In this document: in pieces, positions 42,608 through 51,720 of the stretch
Layout: each line of letters starts with the position of its first letter
Numbering within the stretch: the first letter of the stretch is position 1
Source: Armatimonadota bacterium
GTDB taxonomy: Bacteria; Armatimonadota; UBA5829; DTJY01
Reading direction: 5' to 3'
NCBI GenBank assembly: GCA_023511795.1
Contig: JAIMAU010000001.1
Coordinates: forward strand, 512,384 to 576,383
DNA: 64,000 bases
Notes under the pieces: generated by a model
Databases searched by the model: none
What the model saw: the letters and a program-made list of their open reading frames with translations, nothing else
What the model was told of the DNA's origin: nothing
Made by a program: the position numbers and the translations under genes

Positions 42608-43654
42608 ATGGTAAGAGTAGGTATAATTGGAGCATTAGGATACGGCGGCGGCGAGCTTGTACGAATTCTTACTAATCACCCACATGTCAAGCTAACATAT
42701 TTATGTTCAGAGCTTGAAAAGCCTATGCGCGTTTCAGATGTGTGTCCAGGATTTAGAGGCATCCTTGACGCAAATTGCGAGGTATATAATCCAACCACAG
42801 CAATCGAGCAATGTGACATACTTTTTATTGCTCAACATCCCGGGTGGGCAATGAAACATGCCAGGCGATTTCTTGATGCTGGCATCAAAGTTATTGATTT
42901 GAGCGCAGACTTCCGACTTCGCAACCCTGAAAATTATGAGCAGTGGTATAAAATTAAGCATGAATCACCCGAATTGATTCAGCAAGCGGTTTACGGGTTG
43001 CCAGAACTCCATCGAAGTCAAATTGCCCAGGCGAAATTGATTGCCAACCCTGGTTGCTTTCCAACGGGTGCAATCTTGGCTCTGATGCCTCTGCTAAAAG
43101 AGAAGCTTGTGGACGCAGATACAATCATTGTGGATTCGAAAACTGGTGCTTCAGGTGCAGGGCGCATGGCTCATAAACTCGACTTCCACTTTCCTGAGCT
43201 TAACGAGAGCATGAAGCCATATAATGTTGGTGTCCATAGACATACCCCTGAAATTGAACAGGAGCTTAGTTCGATTGTTGGATGCCAAGTAACTATATCA
43301 TTCACGCCCCACTTAGTGCCAATCACTAGAGGTATTCTTACAACCGCGTATGCTCGGCTTCTTGACACTAGTATGACAACAGAAAACCTCGTTGACATCT
43401 ACAGGCAACATTATGCAAATGATTACTTCGTTGTAGTCCTAAATGCGGGCGAATATCCAGCAACGAAAAACACATATGGTTCGAACTTTTGCCAGATTGG
43501 TTTAAAAGCCGACGAAAGGACAGGGCGTGTAGTTGTGATTTCTGCTATTGACAATCTAGTCAAAGGCATGGCAGGCGAAGCCGTGCAAAATATGAACCTG
43601 ATGTGTGGTTTTGACGAAAAGACTGCGCTTGATCGTCCGGCGATGTTTCCATGA
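42608..43654 (+). CDS. argC: N-acetyl-gamma-glutamyl-phosphate reductase
   Basis: Third step of arginine synthesis: NADPH-dependent reduction of N-acetylglutamyl phosphate to the semialdehyde. 348 residues. NADP-binding GALGYGGGELVRIL at the start; catalytic Cys in NPGCFPTGAIL (about residue 150); substrate-site His in VHRHTPEIEQEL. The stop overlaps the argJ start by 4 nt (ATGA). Confidence 0.97.
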   Translation: MVRVGIIGALGYGGGELVRILTNHPHVKLTYLCSELEKPMRVSDVCPGFRGILDANCEVYNPTTAIEQCDILFIAQHPGWAMKHARRFLDAGIKVIDLSADFRLRNPENYEQWYKIKHESPELIQQAVYGLPELHRSQIAQAKLIANPGCFPTGAILALMPLLKEKLVDADTIIVDSKTGASGAGRMAHKLDFHFPELNESMKPYNVGVHRHTPEIEQELSSIVGCQVTISFTPHLVPITRGILTTAYARLLDTSMTTENLVDIYRQHYANDYFVVVLNAGEYPATKNTYGSNFCQIGLKADERTGRVVVISAIDNLVKGMAGEAVQNMNLMCGFDEKTALDRPAMFP

Positions 43655-44850
43655 TAGAATATCCTAGTTCAATAACCAAGCCAAAGGGTTTCTTAGCAGC
43701 AGGAGTGCGCGCTGGAATCAAAGAAAAAGGCGAGGATTTGGCACTCATAGTTTCGGAACAACCTGCTTCGATAGCTGGTGTCTTTACAAAAAACATATTT
43801 AAAGCCGCTCCGGTTCAAGTATGCATTTCGCGAATTCCTAGGGCAACCGCTCGGGCAATTGTCGCAAATAGTGGCAATGCAAATGCATGTACTGGTAAGG
43901 TCGGAATAGAGGATGCCAGGCGTATGATTGCCGAGGTGGCATGCCGACTGGACGTGCCGGAGGAAGATGTGTTTGTTGCGTCCACTGGCGTCATTGGACG
44001 GCGTCTGCCAATCCAAAAAATAATAAATGGCATTGATTTGGCAGTCTCAAGTTTGAGCAAGAACTGCGGAGCGAATGTGGCTCGGGCGATTATGACCACC
44101 GATACTCGTCCAAAGGAAGCCGAAGTTGAGTTTGATATCGGTGGGGTGAGGGCGACAATAGGCGGCATTGCGAAAGGTGCAGGCATGATATGTCCAAATA
44201 TGGCAACAATGCTTGCATTCCTTACCACCGATGTTGCTATTACACCCACAATGCTTCAGATAGCATTATCTCGTTCAACTGAAATCTCGTTCAACTGCCT
44301 TACCATCGATGGCGACACAAGCACAAATGATAGCGTATTTATTCTTGCGAATGGAGCAGCTGGAAATTCAGTAATTAATGCCGAGAGTGAAGTTTTTCAA
44401 GTTTTTCAACAACACCTTGATGCTGTCACAATTCAACTTGCTCGCCAAATTGCAGCAGACGGCGAAGGCGCCACGAAGGCAGTCAGCGTAACGGTCAAAG
44501 GCGCGAAATCTTATAAGGACTGCCGGCAAATTGCTAAAACAATAGCTAACTCTCCGCTTGTTAAGACGGCAATGTTCGGTTGCGACCCAAATTGGGGCCG
44601 AGTTATAGCAGCAGCAGGAAGAGCAGGTGTTGAATTCGACCCCAATGTAGTCAGCTTGTATTTTGGCGATATCTTAATCATTGAAAACGGAGAGCCTGTA
44701 ATTTTTTCGCAGGCTGAAGCACGCAAATATCTGTCTGGAAAAGATGTATTGATAACTTTGAACGTAGGCAGTGAAAATTGGTCTGCTACTGTATGGACTT
44801 GCGATCTTTCGTACGATTACGTCAAAATCAATGCAGAATATCACACTTAA
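43651..44850 (+). CDS. argJ: Ornithine acetyltransferase / N-acetylglutamate synthase (ArgJ)
   Basis: Recycles the acetyl group from N-acetylornithine to glutamate and in the bifunctional form also uses acetyl-CoA. 399 residues. The self-cleavage site lies before Thr186 in the PNMATMLAF motif, giving alpha and beta chains. NSGNANACTG and GDTSTND motifs are intact. No argA or argE is seen in the window, consistent with a cyclic pathway. ATGA overlap with argC. Confidence 0.96.
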   Translation: MIEYPSSITKPKGFLAAGVRAGIKEKGEDLALIVSEQPASIAGVFTKNIFKAAPVQVCISRIPRATARAIVANSGNANACTGKVGIEDARRMIAEVACRLDVPEEDVFVASTGVIGRRLPIQKIINGIDLAVSSLSKNCGANVARAIMTTDTRPKEAEVEFDIGGVRATIGGIAKGAGMICPNMATMLAFLTTDVAITPTMLQIALSRSTEISFNCLTIDGDTSTNDSVFILANGAAGNSVINAESEVFQVFQQHLDAVTIQLARQIAADGEGATKAVSVTVKGAKSYKDCRQIAKTIANSPLVKTAMFGCDPNWGRVIAAAGRAGVEFDPNVVSLYFGDILIIENGEPVIFSQAEARKYLSGKDVLITLNVGSENWSATVWTCDLSYDYVKINAEYHT

Positions 44851-44917
44851 AATTCTACATGATTTTTGGTTATTGAAAGTGTGGTGAAACCGGGGTTTAA
44901 TGGTTATGGAGAAAAAA

Positions 44918-45775
44918 ATGAGCGCTAGCGCTGAACAAGCAGAAATTCTCGTCCAGGCTCTTCCATATATCAGGCAATACTATGGCAAGACCATCGTCGT
45001 TAAATATGGCGGCAATGCGATGGTGGACGAAAGGCTTAAACAAGGCGTGATGAAGGACATAGTCCTTATGCATTATGTAGGCATGCGTCCTGTACTTGTC
45101 CATGGTGGCGGTCCTGAGATTACCGAATTAATGGAGCGAATGGGCAAAAAGCCGAGCTTTATCAAGGGGCTTCGTGTTACCGATGCAGAGACGATGGAAA
45201 TCGTCGAGATGGTTCTTACTGGAAAAACAAACAAGAGCATTGTCTCACTTATCAATTCGCAGGGGGGCAAGGCTGTTGGCTTGAGCGGCAAGGATGGGAA
45301 TCTTATGGTAGCTGAAAAGGCTCAGATTGAAGATGCTGACCTCGGATACGTTGGCAAAATTGTAGAAATAAATACCGAGATCATTGAAACCCTAATTCAT
45401 GAGGGATATATACCAGTAGTATCCTCTATTGCGGTAGGTAGAGATTGGGAAACATATAATTTGAATGCAGACCACGCGGCTGGGGAGCTAGCCGGCGCGC
45501 TTGAGGCGGCAAAGCTAATCATTCTAACAGACGTAACAGGGGTTTACCGTGACTTCAGCGACAAAACCAGCCTTATTTCGGAGCTTTCGGCATCAGAAGC
45601 CAAGGAAATGATTCGGACAGGCAAGGTTGACAAAGGAATGATTCCAAAGCTGGAGGCATGCCTTATGGCGTTATCAGGCGGCGTCGAACGCGCACATATT
45701 ATTGATGGCACGCTACCCCATGCGCTCCTGATGGAGATATTTACTGACACTGGCATTGGCACTATGATTACCTAG
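44918..45775 (+). CDS. argB: Acetylglutamate kinase
   Basis: Phosphorylates N-acetylglutamate; the usual control point of the pathway. The ATG at 44918 is 7 bp after TATGGAG; an in-frame ATG at 44900 lacks a site. 285 residues. KYGGNAM, VHGGGPEI and a C-terminal IFTDTGIGTMI segment are present. The N-terminal helix (AEILVQALPYIRQYYGK) and that C-terminal signature match the arginine-inhibited hexameric class, so feedback inhibition is likely. Confidence 0.96.
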   Translation: MSASAEQAEILVQALPYIRQYYGKTIVVKYGGNAMVDERLKQGVMKDIVLMHYVGMRPVLVHGGGPEITELMERMGKKPSFIKGLRVTDAETMEIVEMVLTGKTNKSIVSLINSQGGKAVGLSGKDGNLMVAEKAQIEDADLGYVGKIVEINTEIIETLIHEGYIPVVSSIAVGRDWETYNLNADHAAGELAGALEAAKLIILTDVTGVYRDFSDKTSLISELSASEAKEMIRTGKVDKGMIPKLEACLMALSGGVERAHIIDGTLPHALLMEIFTDTGIGTMIT

Positions 45776-45991: not shown

Positions 45992-47200
45992 ATGGCGATG
46001 CTAGATATGGATACAAAGACTGCGATTGAAATGGATGCCAAGTATATGATGCGCTTTGTCGGGCGGTTGCCAGTTGCATTTGTACGTGGTGAAGGAATAA
46101 AAGTTTGGGATGCTGAAGGAAAAGAATACCTAGACTTTCTTGCAGGTATCGCAGTAAATGGTTTGGGCCATTGTCCACCAGCCGTTGTGTCGGCTATTAG
46201 GGAGCAAGCTGGAACGCTCATGCATGTGAGCAACCTATACTACATACCCCAACAAGCAGTTCTTGCAAAGCGGTTAGTTGAGCTCTCAGGCTTGGGTAAG
46301 GCGTTTTTTTGCAATAGCGGTGCGGAAGCGAATGAAGCAGCTATAAAGCTTGCCCGAAAGTGGGCGAAAGAGAACTGTGGTGAAGATAAATACGAGATCA
46401 TAACAACAGAGGGGTCTTTTCATGGACGAACTCTTGCTACCGTAACTGCAACAGGACAGCCGAAGTACCATCAGGGATTCGAACCATTGGTTCCTGGGTT
46501 CAAATACGTGCCATTTAATGACCTCACAGCGCTGAAGGCAGCAATTTCTGAGAAGACATGTGCGATAATGCTCGAGCCCATACAGGGCGAATCGGGCGTT
46601 TTTCCTGCTACCCTTGAGTATCTGCATGGCATAAGAAAACTTTGCGATGAGTTAGGATTGCTCTTGATACTAGATGAGATTCAAACTGGGCTAGGTAGAA
46701 CTGGAAAGTGGTTTGGTTTTCAGCATTATGGCATAATGCCAGATATCATGACGTTGGCAAAGACCCTGGGAGGTGGTTTCCCAATAGGTGCATGTCTAGC
46801 GTCTGATATCGTTGCCACCGGATTTCAGCCGGGTAATCATTCTTCAACTTTTGGTGGGAATCCATTGGCTTGTGCCGCTGCAATCGCTGCATTGCGCGAA
46901 ATTGATGAAGAAGGTTTGGTTCAAAACTCGGCGGAAGTAGGGGTTTATTTTAAGGACCGGTTGGAAGAACTTAAATCAAGACGGGATGATATCATCGAAA
47001 TACGAGGCGTTGGTCTAATGATTGGAATGACGCTAGCGCGCAAGGGTGCACCCAAAGTGGCAACTAAATGCCTAGAAAAAGGATTAATACTCAATTCGAT
47101 TGGCGAAAGCATTTTGAGATTTCTCCCACCTTTAATTGTCAAAAAGGAACATGTTGATACCGCTGTGGATATACTTAGCGAAACCCTTCAGGAGGTTTAA
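45992..47200 (+). CDS. argD: Acetylornithine aminotransferase
   Basis: PLP-dependent transfer of the amino group from glutamate to N-acetylglutamate semialdehyde. 402 residues. PLP lysine in TLAKTLGGG; phosphate- and cofactor-contact motifs NSGAEANEAAIKLAR, HGRTLATV and LDEIQTGLGRTG are intact. ATG 45992 follows AGGAAAGGG by 9 bp. First gene behind the attenuator-like leader; 39 bp before the Clp N-domain gene. Confidence 0.96.
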   Translation: MAMLDMDTKTAIEMDAKYMMRFVGRLPVAFVRGEGIKVWDAEGKEYLDFLAGIAVNGLGHCPPAVVSAIREQAGTLMHVSNLYYIPQQAVLAKRLVELSGLGKAFFCNSGAEANEAAIKLARKWAKENCGEDKYEIITTEGSFHGRTLATVTATGQPKYHQGFEPLVPGFKYVPFNDLTALKAAISEKTCAIMLEPIQGESGVFPATLEYLHGIRKLCDELGLLLILDEIQTGLGRTGKWFGFQHYGIMPDIMTLAKTLGGGFPIGACLASDIVATGFQPGNHSSTFGGNPLACAAAIAALREIDEEGLVQNSAEVGVYFKDRLEELKSRRDDIIEIRGVGLMIGMTLARKGAPKVATKCLEKGLILNSIGESILRFLPPLIVKKEHVDTAVDILSETLQEV

Positions 47201-47239
47201 TTTTATTAGACTTCCGCTCTGTTGAGAGGAGATACAAAA

Positions 47240-47707
47240 ATGTGGAAGCAACTTACCCAGAAAGCACAAAAAGCAGTTTTTCTGGCGCTCGAAGAAGCAG
47301 GAAAGCTTGGTTATAGCCATGTAGGTCCAGAACATTTACTTCTAGCGCTTGTCAGAGAAGAGGATTGCCTTGCCGCCAGGATTCTTGAGCGCATAGGTGT
47401 TGACCTTGGCACGGTGCGCAGCGAAATTATGAAGCGGCTGTCGAGAGGTTCGGAGACCTTGAGCGATGGCCTTGAGCTTACGGCTGAGGCAAAGCACGTA
47501 ATAGACCTAGCTTTTGATGAAAGCAGACAGGCAAAAGAGGATTGGATAGGAACTGAGCATTTACTAATTGGGCTTGCAGAAGAACCCCATAGTATTGCAG
47601 CTCAGTTTCTTGCCGAGCATGGTATTGATGCAGCACTAATTCGTAGGGAGCTAAGAAGTATGCAAGCAGGTGCACTGCCGTTCGGGCAGAACAGTGGAGG
47701 AAAGTAA
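47240..47707 (+). CDS. Free-standing double Clp N-terminal domain protein in the arg operon
   Basis: 155 residues from ATG 47240, 8 bp after GAGGAG. The whole protein is two Clp_N repeats like the N-terminal domain of ClpC/ClpA, with no AAA+ module. Repeat 1 (about 3-70) has VGPEHLLLAL with Glu31; repeat 2 (about 78-148) has IGTEHLLIGL with Glu106. In Bacillus ClpC the equivalent residues (Glu32 and Glu106, from memory) bind phosphorylated arginine of substrates. Free Clp_N proteins (ClpS-independent, MecA-unrelated) are known but their roles are mostly undefined. It sits between argD and the Clp_N-ArgF fusion, with 3 bp to the latter, so the pair is co-expressed. It may interact with the fusion, with ClpC, or bind a small arginine-like ligand; all three are inference. 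Confidence 0.9.
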   Translation: MWKQLTQKAQKAVFLALEEAGKLGYSHVGPEHLLLALVREEDCLAARILERIGVDLGTVRSEIMKRLSRGSETLSDGLELTAEAKHVIDLAFDESRQAKEDWIGTEHLLIGLAEEPHSIAAQFLAEHGIDAALIRRELRSMQAGALPFGQNSGGK

Positions 47708-47710
47708 CTA

Positions 47711-49126
47711 ATGTGGCAGAGATTCACGGAAAAGGCGCGATTGGCTATTTTCTATGCGCAGGAGGAGGCGGCGAAAAGAAAGAGCAGAATCGTTGGCACT
47801 GAGCATTTATTGCTTGGTTTATTGCATAAGCCAGACAACATTGCCAAACGCGTCTTTCAGCGCATTGGAGTAAACGAGGAAAGCCTGCGCAGGGAGATTG
47901 AGAAAATGGCGCCGGTTTCCGACACTGGCGATGTAAACCAAGATATGCAACTCTCAGCAAATGCTAAGCGTGCAATTGACTTGGCTTACCAGTCGGCTAG
48001 AGAGCTGAGAAGCAATTACGTTGGGACAGAGCACCTACTCCTCGGGTTGGTCAAGAACGACCGTGGAACCGTTGCTCCCCTTCTAGCGCAAATGGGTGTG
48101 ACTTTCGAGCGTGTCAAGCAAGAAATCTCAGCGATTCAAACGTCAGAGACACGCGTTGACGAAATCACGGCTCACGATTCGCATCTAAAAGTACCAGATA
48201 ACATGCGAGGCAAAGATTTAATCTCAATTGATGACCTTAGCCGCGAGGAAATAGAAACAATATTTGACCTCGCCCGACAACTTAAATCACGGAGTTTGAC
48301 AGAGCAATATGCCAATCCCATTCTGCCAGGCAAGACGCTTGCCATGATATTTGAGAAGCCGTCTCTTAGGACACGTGTAACATTCGAGGTTGGTATGTCT
48401 CAACTTGGCGGTAACGCTGTCTATCTTGCACCTGCCGACATCCGAATGGGCGAACGTGAGCAAGTCAGCGATGTTGCAAAGAATCTCGAACGCTGGGTAC
48501 ATGGTATAATGGCACGGACTTTTAAGCACAAAACCATAACCGAACTTGCAAAGTATGCAAATATCCCAATTATAAATGGTCTATCAGACCTAGAGCATCC
48601 TTGCCAAGCATTGGCCGATTTCTTGACAATCTTAGAGAAAAAGGGCGACCTTTCAAAGCTCAAGCTTGCCTACATTGGCGATGGATGCAACACTTGCCAC
48701 AGCCTTATGCTCCTCGCTGCAAAGGTTGGCACAGACATTGCGGTGGGCTGTCCGGAGGGTTATGAACCAAATACAGTGATTCTCAACAAAGCACTTCGAG
48801 CTGCGGAGCACTCGGAAGCTTCGATAAAAGTAACAAATGACCCATTTGAGGCCGTAGAAAATGCTGATGCAATCTATACGGATGTCTGGTGTAGTATGGG
48901 ATTGGAGGATGAACGAGAGAAACGACTGCCGGTGTTCCAACCTTATCAAGTAAATCAAAAGCTTGTTGAGGCAGCTCGGAACGATGTGATTGTTCTCCAC
49001 TGCCTCCCAGCGCACCGCGGCGAAGAAATCACTGACGAAGTAATCGACGGCCCGCACTCGGTTGTGTTCGATGAAGCGGAGAATCGTTTGCATGTGCAAA
49101 AAGCACTGTTGGCATTGCTATTGTAA
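47711..49126 (+). CDS. argF: Clp N-terminal domain fused to ornithine carbamoyltransferase
   Basis: 471 residues in one uninterrupted frame. Residues 1-145 are two Clp_N repeats with GTEH at Glu31 and Glu107, followed by a 20-residue linker. Residues 165-471 are a complete ornithine carbamoyltransferase, which makes citrulline from ornithine and carbamoyl phosphate: SLRTR (218-222) for carbamoyl phosphate, HPCQ (296-299), DVWCSMG for ornithine, and HCLPAHRG (from 430). An internal ATG at 48203 would give the enzyme alone but has no ribosome binding site, so the fusion is the expected product. Normal ArgF is about 305-335 residues; I know of no described enzyme with this layout. Neighbours are argD and the free Clp_N protein upstream, argG and argH downstream. 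A link to Clp proteolysis or to arginine sensing is inference. Confidence 0.93.
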   Translation: MWQRFTEKARLAIFYAQEEAAKRKSRIVGTEHLLLGLLHKPDNIAKRVFQRIGVNEESLRREIEKMAPVSDTGDVNQDMQLSANAKRAIDLAYQSARELRSNYVGTEHLLLGLVKNDRGTVAPLLAQMGVTFERVKQEISAIQTSETRVDEITAHDSHLKVPDNMRGKDLISIDDLSREEIETIFDLARQLKSRSLTEQYANPILPGKTLAMIFEKPSLRTRVTFEVGMSQLGGNAVYLAPADIRMGEREQVSDVAKNLERWVHGIMARTFKHKTITELAKYANIPIINGLSDLEHPCQALADFLTILEKKGDLSKLKLAYIGDGCNTCHSLMLLAAKVGTDIAVGCPEGYEPNTVILNKALRAAEHSEASIKVTNDPFEAVENADAIYTDVWCSMGLEDEREKRLPVFQPYQVNQKLVEAARNDVIVLHCLPAHRGEEITDEVIDGPHSVVFDEAENRLHVQKALLALLL

Positions 49127-49147
49127 CATAAAGAAGGAGCGGAAAAG

Positions 49148-50338
49148 ATGAAAACAGTAGTTCTTGCATATTCTGGTGGCCTGGATACCTCAGTGTGCAT
49201 ACCGATGATGAAAGAATTTTATGGTTTTGATAAGGTTGTAACTGTAACAGTGGACGTAGGCCAGCCACCTGATGACATTGCCGAAGCCGAGGAGAAGGCT
49301 CGTATCCTAGGAACAGAGCATTATACTATCGACGCTAAAGAAGAATTTGTGAAGGATTATGTATTCCATGCCATAAAAGCAAATGGCGACTACCAGGGCT
49401 ATCCATTGAGTACTGCAATTGCTCGGCCTTTAATTGCTGCCAAGAGCGTTGAGATAGCCCAACAGGTCGATGCTGACGCATTCGGCCATGGGTGTACCGG
49501 TAAAGGAAATGACCAATTTAGGTTCGAAATCGTTGTTCGAACGTTTGCACCCGAAAAGGAAGTCATAGCTCCAATGCGAGAGCGGAACCTCACGCGAAGC
49601 GAGGAAATCGAATATGCAAAAAGCCGAGGCGTACCTATTGCCCAGTCGGTTGAGAAGATATGGAGCATTGATGAAAATCTTTGGGGTCGCTCAATAGAAG
49701 GCGGCCGACTCGAAGAACCTGACTTTGTGCCTCCGGAGGAGATTTATAAGTGGACAAAAGGTCCTAACAAAAGTCCAAATACCCCGCTTGAGATTACAAT
49801 TGGCTTCGAGAACGGTGTGCCAGTCTCGCTGGATGGCAAAAGAATGGACGGAGTTTCCCTAATTCGCCAGCTGAATGAAATCGCAGGTGAGCACGGCGTT
49901 GGTAGAATAGATATAATGGAGGATAGAATGCTCGGCCTGAAAGTGCGAGAAAACTACGAGTGTCCAGCAGCCGTCACACTGCTAACTGCACACAAAGCGT
50001 TGGAAGCACTGGTTTGCACAAAAGAAGAGATAAAGTTCAAGTCGATGGTTGACCGTGAGTGGGGCCAACTTGCATATGAAGGTCTTTGGTTCCATCCTCT
50101 GAAGGATGATCTAGAGGCGTTTATTGATAAGATTCAAGAGCGGGTAACCGGGGACGTAAAAATGCAGTTATTTAAAGGTCAGGCAAAGGTCATTGGACGG
50201 AGTAGTAGATGGGCGCTATATTCTGAGGACTTAGCATCGTTCGACACAAAGACCTTTGTGCAAAGCGAGATGACGGGTGCAGTAAAAGTTCATGGCTTGC
50301 AATCCAAAATGTATTGGTGGTTGAAAAGGGGTCAGTGA
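49148..50338 (+). CDS. argG: Argininosuccinate synthase
   Basis: Joins citrulline and aspartate using ATP. 396 residues. ATP-pyrophosphatase P-loop [10 protein letters not shown] (residues 7-16), [14 protein letters not shown], and citrulline/aspartate-site segments are intact. ATG after GAAGGAGCGG, 21 bp after the fusion gene. Stop overlaps the argH start. Confidence 0.97.
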
Positions 50339-51720
50339 TGTCTAAGCTTTGGGGCGGAAGATTCAAGAAAGCAACTTCCCCAATTGTGGATGAGTTCAAT
50401 GCGTCGATAAGCTTCGACGCGAGGCTTTGGAGATATGACATCGAGCAGAGCATTGCCCATGCTTCTATGCTTGGCAAGTGTGGAATTATTCCGCTGGCAG
50501 AGTCGGAAAAGATTATACAAGGTCTTCGTGATTTAAAAAACGATATTGAGGCGGGAAAAGTTGAGTTCGACACGTCGGCAGAAGACATCCATATGAACAT
50601 CGAAAAGCTTCTTCACGAGCGAATAGGCGATGTGGCTGGGATGCTGCAGACCGCTCGAAGCCGCAATGACCAGGTCGCAACCGATGTTAGAATGTATGTA
50701 AAGGCGCAAATAAAGGAGATTGATAGCCTGATTCGAGAAGCCCAATCGGCTTTTATCAAAGTTGCAGAAAGCAATATCGATACAATAATGCCTGGATATA
50801 CACACCTTCAACATGCCCAGCCAGTTATGCTAGCTCATCACATTCTTGCATATGTGTGGATGCTCCAGCGTGATCGAGAACGCCTAGCAGATTGTTTCAA
50901 GCGGACAGATGTGCTTCCGCTGGGATCCGCGGCGCTTGCGGGAACCTCGTTCCCGATTGATAGGGAATACACGGCTAAAATGCTTGGATTTTCACGGATA
51001 AGTGAAAATAGTATGGATGCGGTAGCAGAGCGAGACTTTGCGGTAGAGTTCTTATGTGCAATCTCAATCCTAGCCATGCACATATCCAGATTTGCTGAAG
51101 AAGTCGTCATTTGGAATACAAGTGAATTCGGCTTTATTGAACTTGACGACTCAGTTGCGACAGGCAGCAGCCTAATGCCACAGAAAAAGAATCCAGATGT
51201 AGCTGAACTCATGCGTGCGAAGACAGGACGTGTCTATGGTGACCTTATGGCACTTCTTACTGTTCTCAAAGGTCTGCCTTTGACCTACAACAAGGACCTC
51301 CAAGAGGATAAAGAACGCTTGTTTGATGCTTCAGATACAATAGTTATTTGTCTGAAAGTCCTCATTGAGTTTGTTGGGCATTTGAAGTTCAATACCAAAA
51401 GGATGTCGGCTGGGCTTGAAGATGACTTTTCAACTGCAACTGACATAGCAGATTACCTTGTAACACGCGGTGTGCCATTTAGAACCGCCCATGAAATAAC
51501 CGGGAAGCTTGTAAGGTATTGCTTGGAACAGGGCAAGACCTTGGGTAACTTGACGCTTGAAGAAATGCGGCGATTCTCGGATAAGTTCGAGGACTCGAGC
51601 TTGACGTGGGATGCCTGGTCCTCGGTTGAAAAACGCAATATCCCCGGAGCAACAGCTCCATGCCGATTGAAGGAACAATTGGAGGCTGCAAAAAAGGCTC
51701 TCGCCGCCGATTTGTTCTAG
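50338..51720 (+). CDS. argH: Argininosuccinate lyase
   Basis: Last step of arginine synthesis, releasing fumarate. 460 residues. ATG 50338 overlaps the argG TGA by one base and gives the standard SKLWGGRFKK start. The superfamily signature GSSLMPQKKNPD, with the catalytic Ser, is present, as are the TARSRNDQVATDVR and GYTHLQHAQP motifs. Ends the operon, convergent with the minus-strand pair below. Confidence 0.97.
   Translation: MSKLWGGRFKKATSPIVDEFNASISFDARLWRYDIEQSIAHASMLGKCGIIPLAESEKIIQGLRDLKNDIEAGKVEFDTSAEDIHMNIEKLLHERIGDVAGMLQTARSRNDQVATDVRMYVKAQIKEIDSLIREAQSAFIKVAESNIDTIMPGYTHLQHAQPVMLAHHILAYVWMLQRDRERLADCFKRTDVLPLGSAALAGTSFPIDREYTAKMLGFSRISENSMDAVAERDFAVEFLCAISILAMHISRFAEEVVIWNTSEFGFIELDDSVATGSSLMPQKKNPDVAELMRAKTGRVYGDLMALLTVLKGLPLTYNKDLQEDKERLFDASDTIVICLKVLIEFVGHLKFNTKRMSAGLEDDFSTATDIADYLVTRGVPFRTAHEITGKLVRYCLEQGKTLGNLTLEEMRRFSDKFEDSSLTWDAWSSVEKRNIPGATAPCRLKEQLEAAKKALAADLF

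Follow-up and report, generated by a model that had tools for sequence, protein, structure and literature searches.

The locus examined here raises the question of why an enzyme of arginine synthesis should carry the N-terminal receptor domain of ClpC. Within the window, the whole 64,000-nucleotide stretch of an Armatimonadota contig (JAIMAU010000001.1) that was analysed, one open reading frame of 471 amino acids (47711-49126, forward strand) encodes a ClpC-type N-terminal module (residues 1-145; 47711-48145) with two Clp_N repeats at 47756-47908 and 47984-48133, a variable linker (residues 146-164; 48146-48202) and an ornithine carbamoyltransferase (OTCase; residues 165-471; 48203-49123). Clp_N was found twice in the chain above the Pfam gathering score (PF02861, E 4.6e-32), and the carbamoyl-phosphate domain OTCace_N (PF02729; residues 168-309, E 1.1e-48) and the ornithine domain OTCace (PF00185; residues 316-470, E 1.8e-62) were both matched at full length; furthermore, with the TIGR00658 OTCase equivalog model the protein reached 413.8 bits, well over the cut-off of 280.9. 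These matches agree with a preliminary description of the frame as two Clp_N repeats joined to a complete ArgF, whose motifs KPSLRTR, HPCQ, SMG and HCLPAH are all intact (checked as SxRT, HPxQ, SMG and HCLP). No AAA domain was found in the 471-residue chain by Pfam, so that the AAA+ rings and ClpP-binding loop that define an Hsp100/ClpC unfoldase are missing from it. The only other carbamoyltransferase relative in the source genome (3.09 Mb in 35 contigs) is a distant 30% match, presumably an aspartate carbamoyltransferase, which makes the fusion the sole OTCase of the genome; from the intact motifs and the single copy we infer that the protein is an active anabolic OTCase.

The fusion is not an artefact of assembly, since standalone and fused genes are paired in the same way in the independently assembled congener G001, the two fusions being full-length and 96% identical, and fusions at 44-60% identity occur in many more distant genomes. 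A separate OTCase product starting at the ATG at 48203 was likewise rejected: as had been noted before, this codon has no ribosome binding site, nothing like GGAGG standing before it, whereas a Shine-Dalgarno GGAGG at 47696-47700 lies 10 nt before the ATG at 47711 and overlaps the 3' end of the preceding gene; moreover, the methionine is not conserved outside the source family.

That preceding gene, passed over in the preliminary description, encodes a standalone double Clp_N protein of 155 amino acids (47240-47707, forward strand; Pfam E 1.4e-28) with repeats at 47285-47440 and 47510-47659; its ATG at 47240 follows GAGAGGAG at 47224-47231, and the open reading frame is listed from a TTG at 47222. 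All five genomes sampled from the source family have retained it. The source genome has only four Clp_N genes, namely clpC, clpB, the standalone gene and the fusion. The last two sit in an arginine operon on the forward strand, as had been claimed for the fusion, in the order argC-argJ-argB-argD-standalone double Clp_N-Clp_N-OTCase-argG-argH. The acetylornithine transaminase gene argD (45992-47200) is directly upstream of the Clp_N genes and argG and argH (49148-51720) are directly downstream of the fusion; the latter two, like argC, argJ and argB (42608-45775), are supported by open reading frames and homologues and take their names from translation and gene order rather than from a family search. 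A scan of 47150-49200 revealed promoter-like sites no more often than expected by chance, and terminator-like sites that fell inside genes; no PADLOC family for anti-phage defence was matched.

The arrangement is not a single case but extends across the phylum, in variable forms that include standalone and multi-copy modules. We searched 291 genomes of the phylum and retrieved the DNA around 100 argF genes, which with the window gave 101 loci, picked by rank and diversity and not at random. The double Clp_N module was fused to argF or lay directly upstream of it in 41 of these loci, representing 13 families, which answers the earlier proposal to look for the PF02861-OTCase architecture in relatives; nearly all Clp_N matches in the sampled argF stretches were of these two kinds. 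The simple Clp_N-OTCase fusion was the commonest form among the module-bearing loci, the standalone-plus-fusion form being seen in the source family and in G077, and a standalone module alone beside argF in family f6 and in G106. Two double modules were fused to the OTCase in G029 and G056, and three modules were fused and one was standalone in G046. On contig C4 of G056 (about 25-44 kb), mcsB-clpC genes were also seen ~16 kb away from the arginine locus and its fused OTCase. The catalytic motifs were intact in all fusions but those of G032, which is cut by a contig end, and G075, whose frame is broken in the OTCase part. Outside the phylum, Clp_N was absent from the retrieved DNA around 45 OTCase loci of other records, these being every locus besides L039 that a single, non-exhaustive scan with short patterns gave.

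Several loci depart further from the common form. A T2SSE-like piece stands between Clp_N and OTCase in G079, and more weakly in G077; a shortened T2SSE/GspE-like N-terminal piece in this position was recognized at L133:3998-5860 (Pfam T2SSE, E 2e-13) and at L139:3998-5848 (below the cut-off), both on the reverse strand, and the C-terminal part of a Clp_N protein at L240 resembles this piece by eye. G002, of the source family, has kept the standalone Clp_N gene but encodes an unfused OTCase some 10 kb beyond it, with a pyrB-like carbamoyltransferase between the two (L126:2258-3196). In G080 the Clp_N part adjoining argF is split over several frames (L143:4984-6918), by real decay or by an assembly frameshift. 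ArgD and OTCase are directly fused into one chain of 700-750 amino acids, without Clp_N, at L187, L188 and L190 of family f16 and at L189 of G070. ClpC-type N-domains were also seen on other carriers in larger genomes (L235, L238 and L239, from G075, G074 and G055), one of them with a GGDEF-like part by eye, and the domain seems to be mobile in Armatimonadota.

Linked copies could merely hitch-hike and be kept alike by gene conversion, with no function in OTCase; the OTCase tree requires at least 15 changes of module state, an indication of easy gain and loss, and sister genomes without the module exist. Comparison of the source genome with G001, however, gave dN/dS values of 0.053 for Clp_N, 0.051 for OTCase, 0.042 for the standalone Clp_N protein and 0.32 for the linker; strong purifying selection thus acts on both the Clp_N and the OTCase part, but not on the linker. 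A module constrained as tightly as the catalytic domain and persisting across 13 families makes neutral capture very improbable.

We then asked where the module comes from. Its best matches in the PDB are crystal structures of the ClpC N-terminal domain (2y1q, 5hbn and 3wdd, E about 3e-27), and it is 47% identical to the N-domain of the source genome's own ClpC. In a structure model it forms eight predicted helices at low confidence, owing to a shallow alignment, while the OTCase part exceeds a pLDDT of 90 over most of its length; most of the linker, about 10-60 amino acids long in most homologues, falls below 50. In trees of N-domains the OTCase-linked modules do not form one clade apart from ClpC; those of f6, f21 and G079 group with the ClpC N-domain of their own lineage. 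The module of G046 pairs with the G046 ClpC (99/91), those of f6 with the f6 ClpC (97/93 in one tree and 100/100 in another) and that of G079 with the G079 ClpC (100/79 in two trees); the first modules of f7 pair with the f7 ClpC in one of two trees (97/99) and lie elsewhere in the other, an unstable placement on long branches. A tree that holds the ClpC domains together and apart from the OTCase-linked modules was rejected with a large loss of 117 likelihood units and a p-AU of 7.4e-14, a value that is optimistic because the rows were picked after the first trees; OTCase has therefore acquired the receptor domain of ClpC on more than one occasion. The probable donor is ClpC, since its branches are short and those of the modules long. 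At the nucleotide level the G079 module matches the N-domain of the resident clpC at 93% identity, the similarity dropping to background at about codon 145, and at the other extreme some modules are only about 35% identical to ClpC. Repeated capture from ClpC and gene conversion are both compatible with these data.

Near-identical copies of ClpC's own domain are also what would be expected if OTCase were only an abundant carrier, the N-domains on display serving to divert substrates, adaptors or natural-product inhibitors from ClpC by titration. Precedents are the mycobacterial ClpC2 and ClpC3, N-domain proteins without an ATPase and with solved structures (8ad9, 9p2p and 8b9o), to which the standalone protein at 47240-47707 corresponds in build; their match to the module is weaker (E 1e-13 to 7e-17). 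ClpC2 and ClpC3 have a protective role; we know of none in an arginine operon or fused to an enzyme. A decoy would not need OTCase as its carrier, and yet the argF site recurs, even if other carriers do occur in the larger genomes of the phylum; we consider this explanation distinctly unlikely.

The known biochemistry of the ClpC N-domain suggests what the module might bind. That domain has two pockets for phospho-arginine (E32 and E106) and a groove for unfolded segments, binds adaptors as well, and holds ClpC in its resting state through T7, R9 and K85 (PMC12583610). The preliminary description had taken the GTEH glutamate of both repeats as a mark of binding to phospho-arginine or an arginine derivative. 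The residues are indeed kept, Glu31 and Glu107 aligning with ClpC E32 and E106, and across the fused modules T7 (T/S), E32 (E/D) and mostly E106 are retained, T7, E32, T/S81 and E106 being among the most conserved residues of all, while R9 and R122 are often changed, a pattern that by itself would point to a preserved ligand pocket and abandoned contacts within ClpC. Eight full-length ClpB N-domains from genomes of the phylum, that of the source genome included, nevertheless keep Thr7, Glu32-His33, Glu106-His107 and usually Thr/Ser81 (a ninth stretch, being truncated, gave a poor alignment). The pocket residues are thus generic to the fold and no proof of phospho-arginine binding, and the glutamate was dropped as a specific sign of it.

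This control weakens the reading in which the module senses a small metabolite, either phospho-arginine in its free form or some other derivative of arginine, and alters OTCase activity allosterically. Such a sensor would fit the high conservation of T7, E32, T/S81 and E106, the arginine-operon setting, the presence of mcsB in the source genome and the likeness of free phospho-arginine to bisubstrate analogues of OTCase such as PALO. The flexible and unconserved linker is less readily reconciled with allostery, as is the occurrence of the module in some genomes as a separate protein and not as a part of the enzyme. Two-pocket binding of phospho-arginine by ClpC again favours a sensor, and phospho-arginine activates S. 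aureus ClpC through the N-domain; unphosphorylated arginine does not (PMC12583610), which disfavours the feedback by arginine itself that had been suggested at first. Families f6, f11 and f21 carry the module with no McsB found, a further point against a metabolite sensor, and on balance we regard it as unlikely.

The arginine kinase McsB was examined across the sample. The source genome has mcsA-mcsB-clpC, mcsB adjoining clpC, and McsB was detected in 31 of the 41 genomes with the module as against 30 of the 60 without it; draft gaps blur the absences, and in an independent-pairs test the association was not significant. A dependence of the module on McsB, which does not track it on the tree, accordingly found no support. 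G002 at first looked like a joint loss of McsB, ClpC and the fusion; a 96% identical ClpC piece at a contig edge indicates that the absence is probably a gap. In the draft genome of G020, which carries the fusion, ClpC was not detected. In the strongest form of a link to arginine phosphorylation, the ClpC N-domains carried on OTCase oligomers would recognize this modification on proteins or the free product of its breakdown, and ClpC/McsB proteolysis would thereby tune arginine synthesis directly; this reading appears distinctly improbable.

The position of the module opens another route. Where argD and argF occur together the module, with few exceptions, stands between them, and it may bind ArgD, a different enzyme of arginine synthesis or segments of unfolded protein, thus serving enzyme assembly or OTCase solubility with no link to proteolysis. 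The direct ArgD-OTCase fusions of f16 and G070 lend some support, and the two to four module copies seen in f7, f6 and f21 are suggestive of avidity arrays. ArgJ acts between ArgD and OTCase, however, and the product of ArgD is not the substrate of OTCase; repeated recopying from ClpC would also go unexplained. We judge a scaffold or chaperone of this kind to be unlikely.

The explanation that we tentatively prefer, itself put at rather less than an even chance, is that the enzyme carries a tethered mimic of the ClpC N-domain, which would tie OTCase to ClpC partners and control its stability or activity. The module would most likely bind the partners of ClpC's own N-domain, candidates being McsA/McsB or MecA-like adaptors, arginine-phosphorylated or unfolded protein segments, and contact surfaces of ClpC, and OTCase, hence arginine synthesis, would be placed under the ClpC partner network. 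The module could be a docking site, built into the enzyme, that sets the moment of OTCase modification or degradation; alternatively, its display on OTCase could draw partners in competition with ClpC. Because the ClpC domain works beside OTCase almost unmodified and has been repeatedly adopted, shared partners are favoured, and we infer from the sequences that partners are shared with ClpC; repeated capture from ClpC likewise strengthens the case for targeting of OTCase by the ClpC system, which is possible. Whether it would act on turnover, on activity or by titrating partners is a matter of guesswork.

Several observations argue for the tethered mimic. The module is selected as strongly as the enzyme and recurs at argF in 13 families, the linker has the flexibility expected for a recognition domain on a tether, mcsA-mcsB-clpC is present in the source genome, and the pocket residues are kept while R9 and R122, which make intramolecular contacts in ClpC (roles from PMC12583610), are relaxed. 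Against it stand the equal retention of the pocket residues in ClpB, the 10 of 41 module-bearing genomes in which McsB is absent or undetected, with no tracking on the tree, the failure to detect ClpC in G020, albeit a draft, and the far-diverged modules, whose low identity to ClpC would fit a changed ligand; gene conversion, moreover, could explain the likeness of the copies even if no partners were shared.

Set beside known systems, the parts are familiar and their combination, an enzyme with a fused receptor domain, is recurrent and undescribed. The module shares the double Clp_N fold of the ClpC N-terminal domains of B. subtilis (2y1q/5hbn), S. aureus and M. tuberculosis (ClpC1), and in several families the OTCase-linked copy derives from the resident ClpC; in contrast to ClpC, it has no AAA+ rings, M-domain or ClpP contact, is joined to a metabolic enzyme and has relaxed R9/R122 contacts. 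The plant proteins ClpT1 and ClpT2 (4y0b and 4y0c), accessory proteins of the chloroplast ClpPR, are also standalone double Clp_N proteins, with a weak sequence match. The fusion contains the complete catalytic chain of an anabolic OTCase such as that of P. furiosus (1a1s/1pvv; 357 bits, all motifs), and ordinary OTCases, unlike the fusion, lack any N-terminal receptor domain. Aspartate carbamoyltransferase likewise pairs a carbamoyltransferase with a dedicated regulatory part, PyrI, which is unrelated to Clp_N. In line with the first impression that no such system had been described, a search of the open-access literature, which takes in few subscription journals, gave no paper that describes Clp_N attached to a carbamoyltransferase.

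Domains of AAA+ proteases are normally studied within the protease; here, across a phylum, the receptor domain of ClpC has been taken up repeatedly by an enzyme of core biosynthesis, either in the same chain or as a neighbour. The chimera is a natural setting for asking what the N-domain does alone, and the large body of work on ClpC N-domain ligands, including antibiotics and BacPROTACs, makes the system readily testable. Were arginine synthesis indeed tuned by ClpC and McsB, a metabolic enzyme would have turned an unfoldase's substrate receptor into its regulatory subunit, and done so repeatedly. More broadly, the recurrence suggests that arginine synthesis has a direct, selectable and undescribed connection with the ClpC network or regulated protein breakdown, and with it a possible new regulation of a textbook pathway.
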